DNA from: Chloroflexota bacterium
GTDB lineage: Bacteria; Chloroflexota; UBA11872; VXOZ01
Reading direction: 5' to 3'
DNA: 64,000 nucleotides
Assembly (NCBI GenBank): GCA_026710945.1
Contig: JAPOQA010000014.1
Coordinates: 62,001-126,000, forward strand
The position numbers were made by a program, and so were the translations under genes. The notes under the pieces were generated by a model. The model worked only from the letters and a program-made list of their open reading frames with translations. It ran no database searches and was not told the origin of the DNA. Each line of letters begins with the position of its first letter. Position 1 is the stretch's first letter. Below, piece after piece: positions 43,671-59,825 of this stretch.

Positions 43671-43896
43671 GATGCGGGGCAATGAAAGGACGGAGAGTAC
43701 ACTACGAGTGTGAGCGCCTTCCGAAGCAAGATAGCTGACGCATAATTGCGTAGTGTCCAAGGGTGCGTGGGTTTCCCCTCGCAGTCTTAATGCAAGAGTG
43801 GCTGTGTGTAGGCTGGCTACGGCCGGCAATGAAGCGATCAAGGGTAATTCACAAGGGATATGATATGCTAGTCAAATATACTGAAGGAGGCAAGAT

Positions 43897-44349
43897 ATGG
43901 CACAGGACGACAAAAGTGATGCACGTCGGGTAATAGCGCGCGCTTGGCAAGATGCGGGATTCAAGAGCTTATTGCTTCGCGATCCTCGTGCGGCGCTGGA
44001 GGACCTCAACATCGAAGTTCCAGACCACTTGTCCCTCTCGGTCTATGACAATTCCGGCTCCACCCACCACATGGTGATTTGCACGCCGTGCAGTTGCTAC
44101 CCCTCCTTCATTGGGGCGGCTCCCGGCTACTGGAAGGACCCAGATTACAAGACCGCCATCACACAGAATCCCGCTGCTTGGCTTGAGGGAATGGGCACGA
44201 AACTTGCCCAGGACGAGAATCTAAAGGTCGTAGACACTGACGTGAACAGCCGCGCATTCGTCATACCTAAGCAGCCGGAGGGCAAGATAACCGAGGAGGC
44301 TACGGCGCAAGCAGTCACTGCTACCAGTCTCGTCGGTCACACACGCTAG
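43897..44349 (+). CDS. Stand-alone nitrile hydratase alpha-like metalloprotein
   Basis: 150 residues, shorter than the about 200 of true nitrile hydratase alpha subunits. The N-terminal helices (ARRVIARAWQDAGFKSLLL, DPRAALEDLNIEVPD) match the family. The metal claw CTPCSC (Cys 62, 65, 67, Ser 66) replaces the usual CTLCSC or CTTCSC, and GYWKDPDYKTAI and RAFVIP follow as in the family C-terminal half. True enzymes hydrate nitriles (or thiocyanate) with Co or Fe held by two oxidised cysteines and the backbone. No beta or activator gene is adjacent. The N-terminal half also resembles leader peptides of nitrile-hydratase-type RiPPs, but the intact claw argues for a metal site. AAGGAGG precedes the ATG. 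Confidence 0.8.
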   Translation: MAQDDKSDARRVIARAWQDAGFKSLLLRDPRAALEDLNIEVPDHLSLSVYDNSGSTHHMVICTPCSCYPSFIGAAPGYWKDPDYKTAITQNPAAWLEGMGTKLAQDENLKVVDTDVNSRAFVIPKQPEGKITEEATAQAVTATSLVGHTR

Positions 44350-44406: not shown

Positions 44407-45363
44407 ATGAACTTGTGCATCGTTGGGTACGGCAGTATTGCCGAAGTACATCGCCGGTCGTTTGCGCGGATTCCCGGCGTGCGCGTCGCGGCCGTCGTCG
44501 GTAGGCTCTTAGAACCGACGCGGGCTTTTGCCGAAAAGTGCGAAGCTTCACTTGCTACGGTTGAGTTGGAAGAGGCTCTGGCAAGAGATGACATTGACGC
44601 GGTCGTGGTCACGTCGCCCAGCGCTAAGCACGCGGCGCAGGCGCAGGCCGCCCTTGAGGCTGGCAAACACGTGCTGGTGGAGATTCCCCTTGCGCTTTCA
44701 CTTCGTGAATCAGAGATGCTCACCGCTCTGGCAGAGCAGCGCGGCCGCACCCTGATGGTGGCTCATACGATGCGCTTTTGGCCGACGTTGACTGCCGTGC
44801 GGCAACGCATCGCCGAAGGCGAGTTGCACGTACACAGCCTTTACATTCACTATGGGTTCCTACGTCGGGAGAACGTGAATTGGCAGGGGCGGCGGCGCTC
44901 GTGGACCGACAACTTGCTCTGGCACCATGGTTGCCATGCGGTGGATACGGCACTATGGCTGCTGGGAGAATCCGCCCAGGACGTTGCCGGCTTCATGGGC
45001 CCGCCGCACCAAGAGCTAGAAATCCCACTGGATCTGGCGGTGTCGCTCCGCACGCCGCGCGACCAAGTGGTGTCATGTGCGCTCTCCTACAACACGATGC
45101 GTTCTCTCCTTGAAATCTTGGTCATCGGTGAAGAGACGACGCTGATGGTGCGGGATAGCAAACTGGTAGATCCCCATGACCAGATAATAGCCGCGGGCGG
45201 CGAGAATGAGGAAGGCAGCGCGGTCTACCTGCAAAATATCGAGTTCATCAGCGCGCTTCGCCAAGAGCGGGAACCCATAGTCTCCGGTGAAGCTGTCCTG
45301 CCAACCATGCGCGCGCTGCAGGCGGTGCAGGATATGAATCCGCAGAATCCGCATCAGCAATAG
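44407..45363 (+). CDS. Gfo/Idh/MocA-family oxidoreductase
   Basis: 318 residues. The Rossmann N-terminus is MNLCIVGYGSIAEVHRRS (about 1-18); the dinucleotide-binding part contains ALEAGKHVLVEIPLAL. The common EKP catalytic motif reads EIP, so the usual Lys is Ile; some carboxymuconate semialdehyde dehydrogenases (LigC-like) carry such a change. The C-terminal part has WTDNLLWHHGCHAVDTALW, with the DxxH-like His. NAD(P) reduction of a sugar or ring aldehyde is likely, exact substrate unknown. Begins 57 bases after the nitrile-hydratase-like gene, so cotranscription is possible. Confidence 0.78.
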   Translation: MNLCIVGYGSIAEVHRRSFARIPGVRVAAVVGRLLEPTRAFAEKCEASLATVELEEALARDDIDAVVVTSPSAKHAAQAQAALEAGKHVLVEIPLALSLRESEMLTALAEQRGRTLMVAHTMRFWPTLTAVRQRIAEGELHVHSLYIHYGFLRRENVNWQGRRRSWTDNLLWHHGCHAVDTALWLLGESAQDVAGFMGPPHQELEIPLDLAVSLRTPRDQVVSCALSYNTMRSLLEILVIGEETTLMVRDSKLVDPHDQIIAAGGENEEGSAVYLQNIEFISALRQEREPIVSGEAVLPTMRALQAVQDMNPQNPHQQ

Positions 45364-45491
45364 GTTTCCCGCCCCGCAAGCGGGCTCGTGGTTGCTGCCG
45401 GGAATGTCATGGTATCGATCATCCACAGGCGCGCTTTCGATTCTGACCACCCCGTCTTTTCGTCCAGTACGGCCTGATGAGGAGGGCATTG

Positions 45492-47990
45492 ATGGTACAC
45501 GCAAAGCCTCTCGATCTGTCAGCAGTGCGGAATGCCGCGCGCCATGACGACGTATCGTCCTGGGACGGCCCCGTGGCACAGGACTTGGCAAAGCTGCCTG
45601 AGGGGGAGCAGGACTTCTGGGGGATTCCCTTCGCTCTAGGCTCTGTGGACGCAACGGAAAGTTGGATTTGCTTGAGTGAAGAGGGTGTCGCCGTTCCAGT
45701 CGGTCGCCGTGGCATCACGCACTTTGTCTTTGCGCACTTTTGCGACGCAGAACCGGGCGTGTCATCCCGGCCCGGCATGAGCGGCATGGTATTTAACCCT
45801 GGCGAGCAACTTGCCGCGTATACGCTCCGCTACGCCGACGGCGGAGAGCAGGTGCAATCAGTCCGGCGGCGGTTTGAAATCAACTCGACCGTCGCTTGGG
45901 GACAAATGGCATTCGCTGCCCGGCCGCAGGGAGGCACGGAACCGGCTGACATCAACGGGCCGTACCCGCGCGGATCTTGGGGACACTGGCAGACGGGCCT
46001 CAAAATGCAGCGGGCACGGTCGGCTTCAAACTACTGGATATACGCACTGCCAAACCCCAATCCCGATCGAACCGTTGAGTCGTTGCAGTTGGCGGCAACA
46101 AGCGGAGTCTACGTTGTGGTTGCCGGCATTACGCTTTATACGGGAAAGCACCATCCACTGCGCCACAATCAGTTGGAAAGTTTTCGCATTGTGCTTCCAG
46201 CGGAAGTGCAGGATGCGTCGCCGGAAGACACAGCGGTGACGGTAGACCTTGGCACCTTGGCGCGCAAGTATGCAGTCCCGGCGTTCGACCCGGAGACGTG
46301 GCTCGATGACGAGGCGCCCGGCTTGGGCGAGAAAGCCAGTAATGAAGCAGAGAAGACGCTAATCGTGGACGTAACCGCAAGCCCCGATGCCACGCTGGAT
46401 GTGGCCGGGCATGCCGTGCCCATGGAGTCCTTGTACAACGCCGGCGAGAGCAAGAGCGGGGACGGCAAGGTCCGGGTGGAGGTGCTTACGCCGGAGCGGA
46501 CGTGGGTCCACGTGCGTTTGGAAGAAGCAGCAAGCGGCAAGACAACCGCCGCCCGGGTCCACTTTCGTTCGCCGGACGGCCGCTATTTTCCACCTTACGG
46601 CCACCGGCATGAAGTAAACGACAACTGGTTTGAAGACTACGCTGGCGATCTCAAGTTGGGATCTACCCAGTACGCCTACGTGGATGGCACCTTTCAGATT
46701 GAACTGCCGGTAGGCGATGTCTATGTCGAGATATTCAAGGGCTTTGAATACCAGCCCTTACGCTCTCGTCTCAAGATTGCGCCGGGGCAACGGGAATTAA
46801 CTCTTAAGCTGGCACGTCCGCTCAATTGGCGCGAGCACGGTTGGGTGACCGCCGATACTCACGTGCACTTCATCTCACCGCAAACCGCCTGGCTGGAAGG
46901 TCAGGCCGAGGGTGTGAACCTGATTAATCTTCTCGCCTCTCAGTGGGGCGATTTGTACACCAACGTCGCTGACATTACCGGCGAGGTTTCCGGCGTCAGC
47001 AGAGACGACACCGTTGTGTACGTGGGCACCGAAAACCGGCAACACTTGATGGGTCACATCAGCCTGCTGGGCGTCAAAGGCGAACCGGTGTACCCCATGA
47101 CCACGGCCGGACCGGGTGAGAGCTACATTGGAGACCCAATACTCAGCAGCATGAGCGAATGGGCGGACCGGGCCCGCGAACGCGATGGCCTGGTGGTCAT
47201 CCCGCACTTCCCAAACCCCTATACTGAAGCAGTAGCGGAGATAGTGCTCGGCAAGGTAGACGCGGTTGAACTCAAGTACTTTACGCCCTCCATCGACGGA
47301 TTCGGCCTGCATGAATGGTACCGATTCCTCAACAACGGCTACCGGGTGGCGGCTGTGGGAGGCACGGACAAGATGAGCGCCGGAATTCCTGTCGGCGGTG
47401 TGCGCACCTACGCGCTGTTGGAGGACGATTTCTCGTTCGGCACATGGGCCCAGGCTGTGCGAGACGGGCGTACATTTACGACCAGCGGCCCGCTCCTGGA
47501 TGTGCGCGTTGAAGGGAAACGGCCCGGCGATGAGCTCAAGCTGCCGTCCGGCGGAGGCACATTGACGGTTGAGGCGTGGGCGGATTCAGTGTTGCCGTTC
47601 CACGAACTGCAAATTGTGTGCAACGGCGCCGTGGTCGCAACCAAGACAGTGCCCGATGGAGGCAAGACCTGCCGCATCAGCCAAGAGGTGAAGCTGGATG
47701 GAAGCGGTTGGATTGCGGCGCGTTGTGTCAGCTCGTTGGAAGTTCAACATTACTGGGTAGTGAACGTGGCGGCCCACACGTCCCCAGTGTATGTCGTAGC
47801 GGACCAGCAAGATCTCTTCAACCCCAGTGACGCAACGTACATGATGACTATCCTGGATGGCGGACTGACCTGGCTCGACACCTTAGCGACGCGGGCCGAC
47901 GCCGAACGCCACACGGGCGTGCGCCGGGGCTTTGAGCACGCAAAATCTCACCTCCAGGGGCGTCTGCACTCGCACGGACATGAGCACTAG
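45492..47990 (+). CDS. Large CehA/McbA-type metallohydrolase
   Basis: 832 residues from the ATG at 45492, chosen for the GAGGAGGG six bases upstream over an ATG 15 bases earlier. The N-terminal half is beta-rich and family-unknown (residues 1-440). From about 445 a PHP-like phosphoesterase fold begins: ADTHVHFISP with His 457 and His 459, then NRQHLMGH, VVIPHFPNPYTEAVAE and GGTDKMSAGIPVGGVRTY. This is the arrangement of CehA/McbA-type enzymes, which cleave esters, carbamates or phosphoesters. The C-terminus is His-rich (HSHGHEH). No signal peptide. Substrate unknown. Confidence 0.78.
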   Translation: MVHAKPLDLSAVRNAARHDDVSSWDGPVAQDLAKLPEGEQDFWGIPFALGSVDATESWICLSEEGVAVPVGRRGITHFVFAHFCDAEPGVSSRPGMSGMVFNPGEQLAAYTLRYADGGEQVQSVRRRFEINSTVAWGQMAFAARPQGGTEPADINGPYPRGSWGHWQTGLKMQRARSASNYWIYALPNPNPDRTVESLQLAATSGVYVVVAGITLYTGKHHPLRHNQLESFRIVLPAEVQDASPEDTAVTVDLGTLARKYAVPAFDPETWLDDEAPGLGEKASNEAEKTLIVDVTASPDATLDVAGHAVPMESLYNAGESKSGDGKVRVEVLTPERTWVHVRLEEAASGKTTAARVHFRSPDGRYFPPYGHRHEVNDNWFEDYAGDLKLGSTQYAYVDGTFQIELPVGDVYVEIFKGFEYQPLRSRLKIAPGQRELTLKLARPLNWREHGWVTADTHVHFISPQTAWLEGQAEGVNLINLLASQWGDLYTNVADITGEVSGVSRDDTVVYVGTENRQHLMGHISLLGVKGEPVYPMTTAGPGESYIGDPILSSMSEWADRARERDGLVVIPHFPNPYTEAVAEIVLGKVDAVELKYFTPSIDGFGLHEWYRFLNNGYRVAAVGGTDKMSAGIPVGGVRTYALLEDDFSFGTWAQAVRDGRTFTTSGPLLDVRVEGKRPGDELKLPSGGGTLTVEAWADSVLPFHELQIVCNGAVVATKTVPDGGKTCRISQEVKLDGSGWIAARCVSSLEVQHYWVVNVAAHTSPVYVVADQQDLFNPSDATYMMTILDGGLTWLDTLATRADAERHTGVRRGFEHAKSHLQGRLHSHGHEH

Positions 47991-48438
47991 AGGCCGCGTG
48001 CCGGCAGCGAGTGACACCGGTTTCGCATTCGTAGAGCATACGGCCGACATTGGTGTGAGGGCTTGGGGGCCCACTCCCGCCGCCGCTTTTGCCGCCACCG
48101 CCCATGGTATGTATGCCATTACACTTGGCAAGGAGCCGGCCGAAACGACGGGACCGACGATAGAGCGCACTGTTACCGTCAGTGGCGAAACGTGGCCTGA
48201 CCTCCTCGTGAACTGGCTTGCGGAACTGCTCTTCCAATTCAGTGTGGAGGGAGTGGTGGCTTATGAGTACGAGTTCTCGGCGTGCGCACCGCCGCGATGT
48301 TCCGCCACAATCACTGGTATAGCCATCGAAAGTGAAGATCAGGTAGCGGGCGGGGAAATCAAGGCAGTGACGTACCATAAACTGAAGATCGACGTGCAGC
48401 CGGAGTGCACGACGGTGCAAGTAATCTTCGACATCTGA
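47980..48438 (+). CDS. Archease, RtcB cofactor protein
   Basis: 152 residues from the ATG at 47980, which overlaps the upstream stop by 11 bases; GTG at 48001 is an alternative. Features are FVEHTADIGVRAWG (about 16-29), AAHGMYAITLG, WPDLLVNWLAELLFQF and the C-terminal AVTYHKLKIDVQ...VIFDI. The conserved Asp/Glu and His residues bind a metal. Archease raises multiple turnover of the RNA ligase RtcB, which is the next gene 14 bases downstream. Cytoplasmic. Confidence 0.88.
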   Translation: MSTRGRVPAASDTGFAFVEHTADIGVRAWGPTPAAAFAATAHGMYAITLGKEPAETTGPTIERTVTVSGETWPDLLVNWLAELLFQFSVEGVVAYEYEFSACAPPRCSATITGIAIESEDQVAGGEIKAVTYHKLKIDVQPECTTVQVIFDI

Positions 48439-48452
48439 GCAGGTAAGGTTTC

Positions 48453-49925
48453 ATGGGAAAGAGCGCGCCACAGAACTGGCGGTCGGTGCTGCGACAGCGG
48501 GATGCGGTCCGCTGGGAATTGCCAGTCGAATACATGCCCGGCATGCGTGTGCCGGGGCTGATCTATGCTGATGCGGCCATGATTGATTCGATGGCCGGTG
48601 ATATGGCGATTCAGCAAGTGGCAAACATGGCCACGCTGCCGGGAATTGTCCGGCATGCCCTTGCCATGCCGGACATCCACTGGGGGTATGGTTTTCCCAT
48701 TGGGGGCGTTGCGGCGACGCGGGTCGAGGACGGCGTTGTCTCTCCGGGCGGCGTCGGATTTGACATAAATTGCGGCGTGCGGCTCTTGCGCACCAATCTT
48801 CACGAGCGGGAAGTAAGGGGCCGTCTGCCGGAGATTATGAATCAACTCTTTCGTGACGTCCCTACCGGTCTGGGGCGCGGCAAGAGGAAGCGCGCCGCGA
48901 ACATTAACATGGAAGACGCTCTTGCCGCGGGGGCGGCGTGGGCAGTGGAGAACGGTCACGGTAGGCGGGAAGACCTCGCCGCTATCGAAGCGGGAGGGTG
49001 TCTGCCCGGCGCCGATCCGACGCAAGTGAGCCAGCGGGCGCGTCAAAGAGGGGCCCCTCAGCTGGGCTCGCTGGGTTCCGGCAATCACTTCTTGGAGATG
49101 CAAGTGGTGGAGACCATTGCGGACGCAGAAGCCGCCCACGCGTTCGGCATCACGGAACCTGGGCAGGTCATGCTTTCCATTCATACCGGCTCTCGCGGGC
49201 TAGGCCACCAGGTGTGCCAGGAATTTCTGGGCACAATGCAGCGCGCGATGGAGAAATACCGCATTACCCTACCAGACAGGCAGTTAGCGTGTGCGCCCAT
49301 TCAGTCCGAAGAGGGCCAGGCGTATCTCGGCGCGATGTCCGCTGCGGCAAATTTCGCTTTTGCCAATCGCCAGGCCATTACCGAACGCACACGGCGGGCA
49401 TTCCAGCACGTGCTTGGCAGCTCAGAATCTGGAATTGAGATTGGTGTGGTCTATGACGTTGCCCACAACATTGCAAAGATGGAACGTCATCGGGTCAATG
49501 GCAAGGAAGCGGACCTGTGCGTTCACCGCAAAGGCGCCACCCGCGCACTGCCGGCGGGGGATCCCGACGTGCCCGCGATGTACCGCTCTGTGGGTCAGCC
49601 GGTCCTCATCCCCGGTGACATGGGTCGCTACTCGTATATTCTCGTGGGGCAGGACCGGGCGCGGCACGAGACCTTTGCCTCAACCTGTCATGGCGCGGGA
49701 CGTGTGCTGAGCCGGGGTGCGGCCAAGAAGAAGCTGGCCGGTGTCGACCTAACACAGGTGCTCCGCAGCAAGGGCATTGTCGTGCGTGCCCAGAGCAAGG
49801 CCGGACTGGCGGAGGAGGCAAGCGACGCCTATAAGGACGTGCGAGAGGTGGTGAATGTGGTCGAGCAATCCGGCATTGCCCGTGTGGTGGCGCGCGTGCG
49901 GCCAATCGGTGTGATCAAGGGTTGA
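48453..49925 (+). CDS. rtcB: RNA-splicing ligase RtcB
   Basis: 490 residues. Mn-binding residues are Asp 104 and Cys 107 (FDINCGVRL), His 212 (GSGNHFLE), His 244 (HTGSRGLGH) and His 338 (VAHNIAK). The GMP-accepting His is at 413 in CHGAGR. It joins RNA 2',3'-cyclic phosphate and 5'-OH ends using GTP, with roles in tRNA splicing or RNA repair. A ribosome site AGGTAAGG precedes the ATG. Genes on both sides form a probable three-gene operon with archease and an AIR-synthase-like kinase. Confidence 0.94.
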   Translation: MGKSAPQNWRSVLRQRDAVRWELPVEYMPGMRVPGLIYADAAMIDSMAGDMAIQQVANMATLPGIVRHALAMPDIHWGYGFPIGGVAATRVEDGVVSPGGVGFDINCGVRLLRTNLHEREVRGRLPEIMNQLFRDVPTGLGRGKRKRAANINMEDALAAGAAWAVENGHGRREDLAAIEAGGCLPGADPTQVSQRARQRGAPQLGSLGSGNHFLEMQVVETIADAEAAHAFGITEPGQVMLSIHTGSRGLGHQVCQEFLGTMQRAMEKYRITLPDRQLACAPIQSEEGQAYLGAMSAAANFAFANRQAITERTRRAFQHVLGSSESGIEIGVVYDVAHNIAKMERHRVNGKEADLCVHRKGATRALPAGDPDVPAMYRSVGQPVLIPGDMGRYSYILVGQDRARHETFASTCHGAGRVLSRGAAKKKLAGVDLTQVLRSKGIVVRAQSKAGLAEEASDAYKDVREVVNVVEQSGIARVVARVRPIGVIKG

Positions 49926-49929
49926 CTCG

Positions 49930-50952
49930 ATGCTCCAAGGCAAACTACCCGCAGCCCTCTTGTCTCAGTTGCTCAAAGCTATACCAATCGATGACCCGGA
50001 CGTAATCGTGGGTCCCCGCTTGGGCGAGGATGCCGCCGTGTTGGACATTGGCAATCGGTACCTCATCGCAAAAAGCGATCCGATTACGTTCACCGCGCAT
50101 CGCATTGGCTGGTACGCTTTGCAGATCAATGCCAATGACGTGGCAACGATGGGTGCGCGTCCGCGCTGGTTCCTGGGCACCCTCTTGCTCCCACCCACGT
50201 GCAGCGAAGAGACAGTAAAGGAGATTTTCGCCGACATCAAGGAAGCGTGCCGGGTGCTGGGTGTCACGCTGGTTGGCGGGCATACGGAGGTGACCGACGG
50301 TGTCGTCCGACCCATCCTTGCCGGGACACTCTTGGGAGAGGTCGCCAAAGACCGGCTAGTCATGAATGCGGACGCGCGGCCCGGGGACGTAATCCTTCTC
50401 ACTGCAGGCATTGCGATTGAAGGCACTGCCATTCTTGCACAGGATGCGAGCGAGGAACTCGCGGCCCAAGGCGTGGCGCCGGTCACAATCGCGCGTGCGC
50501 GGGCATACCTTGACGACCCCGGCATCAGTGTGGTTCGTGCCGCGGAGGCGTTGTGCCGTGCAGTGCATCCACGCGCGATGCACGATCCCACGGAAGGCGG
50601 ACTGGCAACGGCTCTGGTTGAACTGGCGGCAGGGGCGGCATGTGGGCTCGCAATCGACCTTGCCACCGTGCCGGTCTTACCGGAGACCGCCGAAATTAGC
50701 ATGGCTCTAGCGCTTGACCCACTCGGCTTACTCGCGTCAGGCGCCTTGCTCGCGGTCGTAGCGCCGGATGACGTCGTCAAAGCCTTAACAGCACTGCAGG
50801 ATTGTGGCATAGAAGCTGCCGCCATTGGCCGCATGACCGAGCAGGTGGAAGGAGTGCGGATGCAGGTGGAAGGGGCTTGGCACCCAGTACCTACATTCCC
50901 GCGCGATGAATTGGCGCGCTTCTTTGCAGAAGCCGGCGGGAACGAAACGTAG
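49930..50952 (+). CDS. AIR synthase-related kinase (HypE/ThiL/SelD-like)
   Basis: 340 residues. The nucleotide-binding motifs of the superfamily are present: GPRLGEDAAVLDIG (about 28), KSDPITFT, INANDVATMGA (about 73), LVGGHTEVTDG (about 117) and MHDPTEGGLATAL (about 217). The protein looks most like HypE, but lacks the C-terminal Cys that HypE uses to form thiocyanate, so it is not a hydrogenase maturation enzyme. It starts four bases after rtcB and has AAGGG upstream, so it is coupled to RNA ligation in expression. Substrate unknown. Confidence 0.8.
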   Translation: MLQGKLPAALLSQLLKAIPIDDPDVIVGPRLGEDAAVLDIGNRYLIAKSDPITFTAHRIGWYALQINANDVATMGARPRWFLGTLLLPPTCSEETVKEIFADIKEACRVLGVTLVGGHTEVTDGVVRPILAGTLLGEVAKDRLVMNADARPGDVILLTAGIAIEGTAILAQDASEELAAQGVAPVTIARARAYLDDPGISVVRAAEALCRAVHPRAMHDPTEGGLATALVELAAGAACGLAIDLATVPVLPETAEISMALALDPLGLLASGALLAVVAPDDVVKALTALQDCGIEAAAIGRMTEQVEGVRMQVEGAWHPVPTFPRDELARFFAEAGGNET

Positions 50953-58829: not shown

Positions 58830-59825
58830 ATGGCACGTGTTGGCTGGGGCATTATTGGATGCGGCGACATCGCGAACAAAGCCGTGGCGCCTGCCGTCAA
58901 CGAGGATCCAAATAGTAGCCTTGTTGCCTTCGCGAGTAGCAGCCAGGAGCGGGCGGAGGACTTCTCGACGAGGCATGGCGCGCAGCGGGCTTATAGCGAC
59001 ATTGAAGCGTTCCTCGCAGACCCGGAGATTGATGTAGTCTATGCCGCCAGTCGCGTGTATGAGCATCTGCCGCAGACAATTGCTTCCGCGGCGGTGGGCA
59101 AACACGTGCTCTGCGAAAAGCCGATGGCGCTCACGGATGCCGAGTGCCGTGAGATGATCTCTGCCTGTCAGCAGGCCGGTGTGAATTTGGCGATCGCCTA
59201 CTACCGGCGCTACTATCCCAAGAACATCAAGATCAAGGAGCTACTCGCTAGCGGGGCAATCGGCACACCGGTCTTGGTGCGCATGGTCTTGACCGGCAAC
59301 TACGACCCGACGCCGGATGACCCGAAGATCTGGCGCGTAGACCCGGCGAAAAGTGCCGGGGGTCCGATCGCAGACGTAGGCTCCCATCGACTCGATCTCC
59401 TTTGCCACTGGTTTGGCGATCCTGTTGCGGTGGCGGCCCGCAACGAGACGCTCGTGCACTCGTATCCCGCGGACGATGCGGATGTGCTATTGATCAAGAT
59501 GGCAAGCGGCGTTCAGGTGACCGCCTCCTTTCACTGGAGCATAGGCGTCGGTTACGACACGATTGAGATATTTGGAACGGAAGGAGCGCTGTTCAGCACA
59601 CCTACCGATGGGGCGAATCTGGTCCTGAAGCATGCCGCGGGTACCGAGGAATTTGACCTCCCGAATGCGGAGAATAAGCACTCACCGCTTGTCGAGGACT
59701 TTAGCGCGAGGGTCCTGGCAGGTGAACCGCCGCTCTACTCGGGTGAAGACGGAGCCAAAGCAACGCGCATCATAGAGACCTCTTTCGCAGCAAGCCGCGC
59801 CGAAAAGTGGGTGACAATCGAATGA
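58830..59825 (+). CDS. Gfo/Idh/MocA-family oxidoreductase
   Basis: 331 residues. Rossmann motif GIIGCGDIANK (about 7), catalytic EKPMAL (about 95) and DVGSHRLDLLCHW with the conserved His (about 180). Intact catalytic residues, unlike the copy at 44407. NAD(P)-dependent sugar or inositol dehydrogenase of unknown specificity. Coupled at both ends: three bases from the CsoR gene and a four-base overlap with the next start. Confidence 0.88.
   Translation: MARVGWGIIGCGDIANKAVAPAVNEDPNSSLVAFASSSQERAEDFSTRHGAQRAYSDIEAFLADPEIDVVYAASRVYEHLPQTIASAAVGKHVLCEKPMALTDAECREMISACQQAGVNLAIAYYRRYYPKNIKIKELLASGAIGTPVLVRMVLTGNYDPTPDDPKIWRVDPAKSAGGPIADVGSHRLDLLCHWFGDPVAVAARNETLVHSYPADDADVLLIKMASGVQVTASFHWSIGVGYDTIEIFGTEGALFSTPTDGANLVLKHAAGTEEFDLPNAENKHSPLVEDFSARVLAGEPPLYSGEDGAKATRIIETSFAASRAEKWVTIE

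Follow-up and report, generated by a model that had tools for sequence, protein, structure and literature searches.

A compact nitrile hydratase alpha-like protein encoded without a beta subunit in Chloroflexota: a candidate claw metalloprotein

Introduction

In nitrile hydratase all of the metal ligands are supplied by the alpha subunit, and a lone alpha can therefore in principle hold the metal centre. Reports differ on how much of the chemistry and maturation of the enzyme alpha alone accounts for. AnhA, an ordinary alpha, takes up cobalt without an activator and shows 0% activity on its own (Table 2 of PMC7329996), whereas ToyJ, the alpha of toyocamycin nitrile hydratase (Nelp et al. 2014), is described in the passage of PMC7329996 that cites it as active and fully modified alone, that is, as sufficient for both activity and cysteine modification. 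With respect to the beta subunit, betaArg56 mutants are dead, and betaR52 and betaR157 bind the oxidised cysteines in nitrile hydratase (PMC7193024).

Alpha genes without beta have been reported from eukaryotes, namely a Karenia brevis EST and, in an earlier report, Aureococcus (PMC3323583). We found no description of bacterial beta-less alphas in the openly accessible literature. Alpha-derived sequence is also present in NHLP leader peptides of RiPP precursors, in which a deletion of 63 residues has removed the claw region and whose end consists of Gly-Gly and a variable core (PMC2887384). The sponge enzyme for aeroplysinin-1 (PMC3766881) was considered as a further lead; no link to it is claimed.

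Results

A compact alpha-like gene under purifying selection

The window, a 64,000-nucleotide stretch of a Chloroflexota genome (3.52 Mb, 98.4% complete), carries the only alpha gene of that genome (Table 1). The 150-residue open reading frame starts with ATG, and a GGAGG-type site lies 5' of the start in four relatives as well. Its product matches PF02979 (NHase_alpha) with 119.6 bits (E 1.4e-34, cut-off 27.2) over profile positions 38-183 of 184, which leaves about 38 N-terminal positions as the only missing part, and all of its best relatives of solved structure are nitrile hydratase alpha chains. The sequence-only reading had described a 150-residue nitrile hydratase alpha-like protein with a CTPCSC claw, and frame, Pfam match and claw residues all agree with that description.

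Table 1. Features of the locus and of related loci. Unlabelled positions are those in the window.
Feature	Position	Strand	Basis or remark
Compact nitrile hydratase alpha-like protein	43897..44349	+	150 aa; PF02979, AlphaFold2, Foldseek, orthologues, dN/dS
Metal claw C62-T-P-C65-S-C67	44080..44097	+	C-T-x-C-S-C invariant in relatives
Ribosome-binding site AAGGAGG	43884..43890	+	Read in sequence
Gfo/Idh/MocA-family oxidoreductase	44407..45363	+	PF01408/PF19858; possible functional partner
CehA/McbA-family metallohydrolase	45477..47990	+	NF038032 E 5.8e-48; syntenic within genus only
f5 acyl-CoA type run: CoA-transferase, SDR, thiolase, DUF35-type, acyl-CoA dehydrogenase, MaoC, then alpha	L036 8932-15512	-	
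N-extended beta-less CT[TS]CSC alphas, three f2 genera	L040 7141-7749, L041 8876-9829, L042 15542-16192	-	

Four further genomes of the genus have orthologues 66-76% identical to the window protein. Across the five genomes, the window's included, the third codon position is the most variable, and dN/dS in the ten pairwise comparisons is 0.06-0.19. The gene is thus not a chance reading frame but a selected protein-coding gene. The C-T-x-C-S-C claw is invariant in all nine compact relatives described below and throughout the 36 aligned alpha domains, so that the claw passed the conservation test proposed in the sequence-only reading. Residues of the claw and its surroundings that are invariant family-wide are H57, C62, T63, C65, S66, C67, P76, K80, Y84, D113 and R119. 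The proline inside the claw is real; of the residues that had been given as usual there, Leu or Thr, it is Leu that all the beta-associated Chloroflexota alphas read carry (CTLCSC).

The AlphaFold2 model of the protein (30 rows; pLDDT 92.5, pTM 0.87) is predicted with high confidence, and the top 39 chains found with it by Foldseek are nitrile hydratase alpha or thiocyanate hydrolase gamma. The query TM-score is 0.85 for 1v29_A and ranges from 0.82 to 0.86 for Co- and Fe-type enzymes; the proteusin leader 8tb1 matched over only 46 columns (E 0.88). In the predicted structure the protein thus has the nitrile hydratase alpha fold, and what it lacks relative to canonical alphas is the N-terminal extension and the post-claw Trp-Pro that many of them carry.

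No beta subunit or beta-like activator in the genome

Profile search of the whole genome gave zero matches to PF02211 and zero to PF21006; as PF21006 spans the N-domain of beta together with the beta-like activators, the genome contains neither a beta subunit nor a beta-like activator. The sequence-only reading had noted that both were missing beside the alpha and had named a beta gene elsewhere in the genome as the finding to look for; the absence holds genome-wide. This negative is informative because the same models detect beta in relatives, namely in two members of the same genus (G003 and G005) and in other members of the class, at E-values of 1e-14 to 1e-38. PF21006 is present, often in two or three copies, in four canonical controls and in G003, with two or three places each in G007, G013 and G029. 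In G003 and G005 the beta belongs to an ordinary alpha-beta pair, located at L043 (G003:C24) and L015 (G005:C9) respectively.

Both beta domains are missing from 11 of the 12 genomes with beta-less alphas. The twelfth, G003, has a compact alpha plus a separate canonical alpha-beta pair, which makes compact and canonical alphas distinct genes. A beta hidden by incomplete assembly is rejected as an explanation: the 11 genomes (77-98% complete) agree, and the profile does pick up beta where relatives have it, among them G003 in the window's own genus. A scan of 400 phylum genomes places a beta gene no more than 3 kb away from none of the 12 beta-less alphas and from 37 of the 38 other full-length alphas (Fisher p 1e-10, a value that ignores shared ancestry). 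In G052, the single exception, alpha and beta are on different contigs; this unlinked alpha (L044 10261-10740) is of the canonical CTLCSC type.

The compact alphas form a clade

Among the 61 relatives and 400 phylum genomes scanned for alpha, a sample of Chloroflexota supplemented by coarse scans elsewhere, we obtained nine compact alphas from three families: five in genus g1 of family f1, two in f5 and two in f4. All nine have a CT[PQ]CSC claw, lack the N-terminal extension, have one residue fewer after the claw, read [YF]WK where other alphas have WYK, and end in an invariant Arg within a C-terminal [HY][TSA]R. The change of claw Leu to Pro or Gln, that of WYK to [YF]WK and the post-claw deletion fall at positions fixed in the canonical set, as do two further clade-specific changes, Tyr to A120 and Ser to T114. 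A model of the compact clade gives its nine members more than 238 bits, a score that is high by construction as the model was built from the same nine, and the next alpha 153. Three other beta-less alphas, from family f2 (G022, G012 and G026), keep the N-terminal extension and have CT[TS]CSC; no common neighbour was found for these three.

In the alpha tree (36 rows, unrooted, with a long-branch warning from the tool) the nine compact alphas form a clade with support of 100/99, and the twelve beta-less alphas are separated from all other alphas with support of 97/100. On this phylogeny the beta-less compact alpha is a clade spanning several families and not an oddity of one genome. A scan of viral contigs gave no relative of the compact alpha. 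In plasmids 176 records matched; among the matches listed, identity is at most about 38%, and those with a named product are nitrile hydratase alphas. An exact-peptide-pattern scan of the genome collection matched the same genus only, but the f4 and f5 relatives escaped it, which shows its low sensitivity.

The gene neighborhood varies between families

The identified immediate neighbors in the window are tRNA-Gly, tig, the oxidoreductase, the metallohydrolase, archease and RtcB. The arrangement tig - (alpha - Gfo/Idh/MocA oxidoreductase - CehA/McbA metallohydrolase - archease - RtcB) is shared with four further members of the genus. The oxidoreductase does start 57 bases downstream of the alpha, as the sequence-only reading had it, but this spacing is not conserved and ranges from 57 to 350 bp within the genus. 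The oxidoreductase adjoins the alpha in f1 in the same direction and in genus g9 of f4 divergently, where it is an orthologue (45-47%). It is also present in 37 of the 41 genomes of the class, most of which have no compact alpha, so its link to the alpha is suggestive only. In both f5 genomes the alpha lies downstream of a MaoC hydratase and an acyl-CoA dehydrogenase, with a DUF35-type protein, thiolase, SDR and CoA-transferase further upstream in G016. Beside the alpha we saw neither an amidase nor a cobalt transporter nor any other nitrile-related gene, and neighbors vary between families.

Elsewhere in the window, archease, RtcB RNA ligase and an AIR-synthase-like protein are encoded consecutively (47932-50952), an arrangement conserved in the genus, and a second Gfo/Idh/MocA oxidoreductase (58830-59825) is not orthologous to the one next to the alpha.

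Discussion

Comparison with known systems

The compact protein has in common with nitrile hydratase alpha (PF02979; TIGR01323; 1v29_A, 1ire_A, 2ahj_A) the fold, the CxxCSC claw, the pre-claw His and the Asp and Arg of the second half. It differs in having no beta, activator or N-terminal helical extension, in Pro or Gln for the claw Leu, in the post-claw residue deletion and in the invariant terminal Arg. Against the equivalog model TIGR01323 it scores 108.5 bits, below the cut-off of 249.85, whereas three canonical-type Chloroflexota alphas score 283-303. Fold and claw are common to thiocyanate hydrolase gamma (TIGR03887; 2dd4_C) as well; there the score is 80.9 against a cut-off of 291.45 bits, and the genome has no beta-like partner subunits (no PF02211 or PF21006). 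ToyJ, likened here by description and not by sequence, naturally has two partner subunits, and the Karenia and Aureococcus alphas, likewise reported without beta, are eukaryotic-type CTLCSC sequences that come from incomplete data or were later found as a fusion (PMC3323583). NHLP leaders (TIGR03793) have N- and C-terminal alpha-derived segments in common with the compact alpha, and differ in lacking the claw region and in having Gly-Gly and a core. By sequence comparison, then, the compact alpha is a member of the nitrile hydratase alpha superfamily that falls outside the nitrile hydratase system on beta, beta-like activator and equivalog cut-off, and outside NHLP precursors on claw deletion, Gly-Gly and variable core.

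A candidate beta-independent metalloprotein and its alternatives

On balance we favour the view that the compact alpha is a claw metalloprotein independent of beta and activator, belonging to a beta-less offshoot of the nitrile hydratase alphas. The sequence-only reading had proposed a single-subunit metalloenzyme or an orphan binding protein; a single-subunit metalloprotein without beta, be it enzyme or binding protein, is supported by the genome-wide absence of beta and the conserved CxxCSC of the homologues. As partner subunit and helper protein are absent, the protein probably needs no partner for its chemistry or uses an unrelated one, and its probable role is that of a hydratase or hydrolase, as a homo-oligomer or with such a partner. 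In this view C62-TP-CSC67 would hold one low-spin Co(III) or Fe(III) ion through its three Cys thiolates and two backbone amides, oxidation would modify part of the claw cysteines, and the site, acting as a Lewis acid, would hydrate or hydrolyse its substrate, either a small nitrile-like compound (nitrile, isonitrile, cyanate, thiocyanate) or some other electrophile. Metal loading would dispense with the usual activator, and the pocket wall that beta normally provides, including the two claw-binding arginines of beta, would be replaced by another copy of alpha or by an unrelated partner. More tentatively, the group might be a family of single-subunit claw metalloenzymes that mature a Co/Fe centre with oxidised cysteines, need neither beta nor activator to do so, and use a substrate other than simple nitriles. 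The activity of ToyJ alone, as cited, and the activator-free uptake of cobalt by AnhA are precedents for a beta-independent enzyme. The inactivity of AnhA alone and the role of beta residues in nitrile hydratase chemistry count against it, as do the lack of amidase, cobalt transporter and other nitrile genes beside the alpha and the differing neighbors of the families.

Next in our ranking, and rather unlikely, is a protein whose claw binds metal without catalysis, as a metal store or chaperone or as a redox or NO/small-molecule sensor. Fe-type nitrile hydratase is a known NO binder and its structure 2ahj is among the Foldseek matches, which would suit a sensor. The beta-supplied pocket residues are missing, the post-claw Trp of many canonical alphas is gone and the claw Leu has become Pro or Gln, all of which would fit a non-enzyme, as would the inactivity of one isolated canonical alpha (PMC7329996); however, second-shell D113, R119, K80 and Y84 are invariant, beyond the needs of metal binding alone, and no regulator gene adjoins the alpha. 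We consider it quite unlikely, and place third, that the compact alpha functions as part of a heteromer with some unrelated protein, for which the oxidoreductase encoded next to it would be the simplest candidate. The adjacency in both f1 and genus g9 of f4, whose alphas are only about 40% identical, speaks for such a complex, while the wide occurrence of the oxidoreductase in the class weakens it as an exclusive partner; moreover, in f5 it is encoded on another contig than the alpha, and in the f4 genome G036 it stands beside DUF5069 without alpha. A decaying remnant of a lost two-subunit enzyme would account for the lost beta and N-terminal extension, but is highly improbable given dN/dS far below 1, a claw intact in all nine and a confidently predicted fold. 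Barely credible is a RiPP precursor with a nitrile hydratase-like leader, a possibility raised in the sequence-only reading that we reject. The protein does score 76.3 bits against TIGR03793 (cut-off 50.9), yet canonical beta-associated alphas also pass this model; the claw that NHLPs lack is retained (PMC2887384), Gly-Gly and variable core are absent, conservation of the C-terminus extends to the final residue in all nine, and no RiPP maturase or export gene is found among the neighboring genes examined.

Implications

A naturally beta-less and activator-less alpha of 150 residues, under purifying selection and present in several families, offers a clean natural test of a minimal claw enzyme beyond the contrast between ToyJ, as cited, and AnhA, and the compact alpha is a small scaffold for biocatalysis. 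The relatives too score above the TIGR03793 cut-off and below that of TIGR01323. Since the nitrile hydratase equivalog fails where the RiPP-leader model passes, automatic annotation could label compact alphas as RiPP precursors, and the group may be misnamed in databases. Separately, four claw-less NHLP-like alpha fragments in the same class (L048, L050, L051 and L052, in G040 and G025), at about 28-32 bits to the model, are candidate RiPP precursors.
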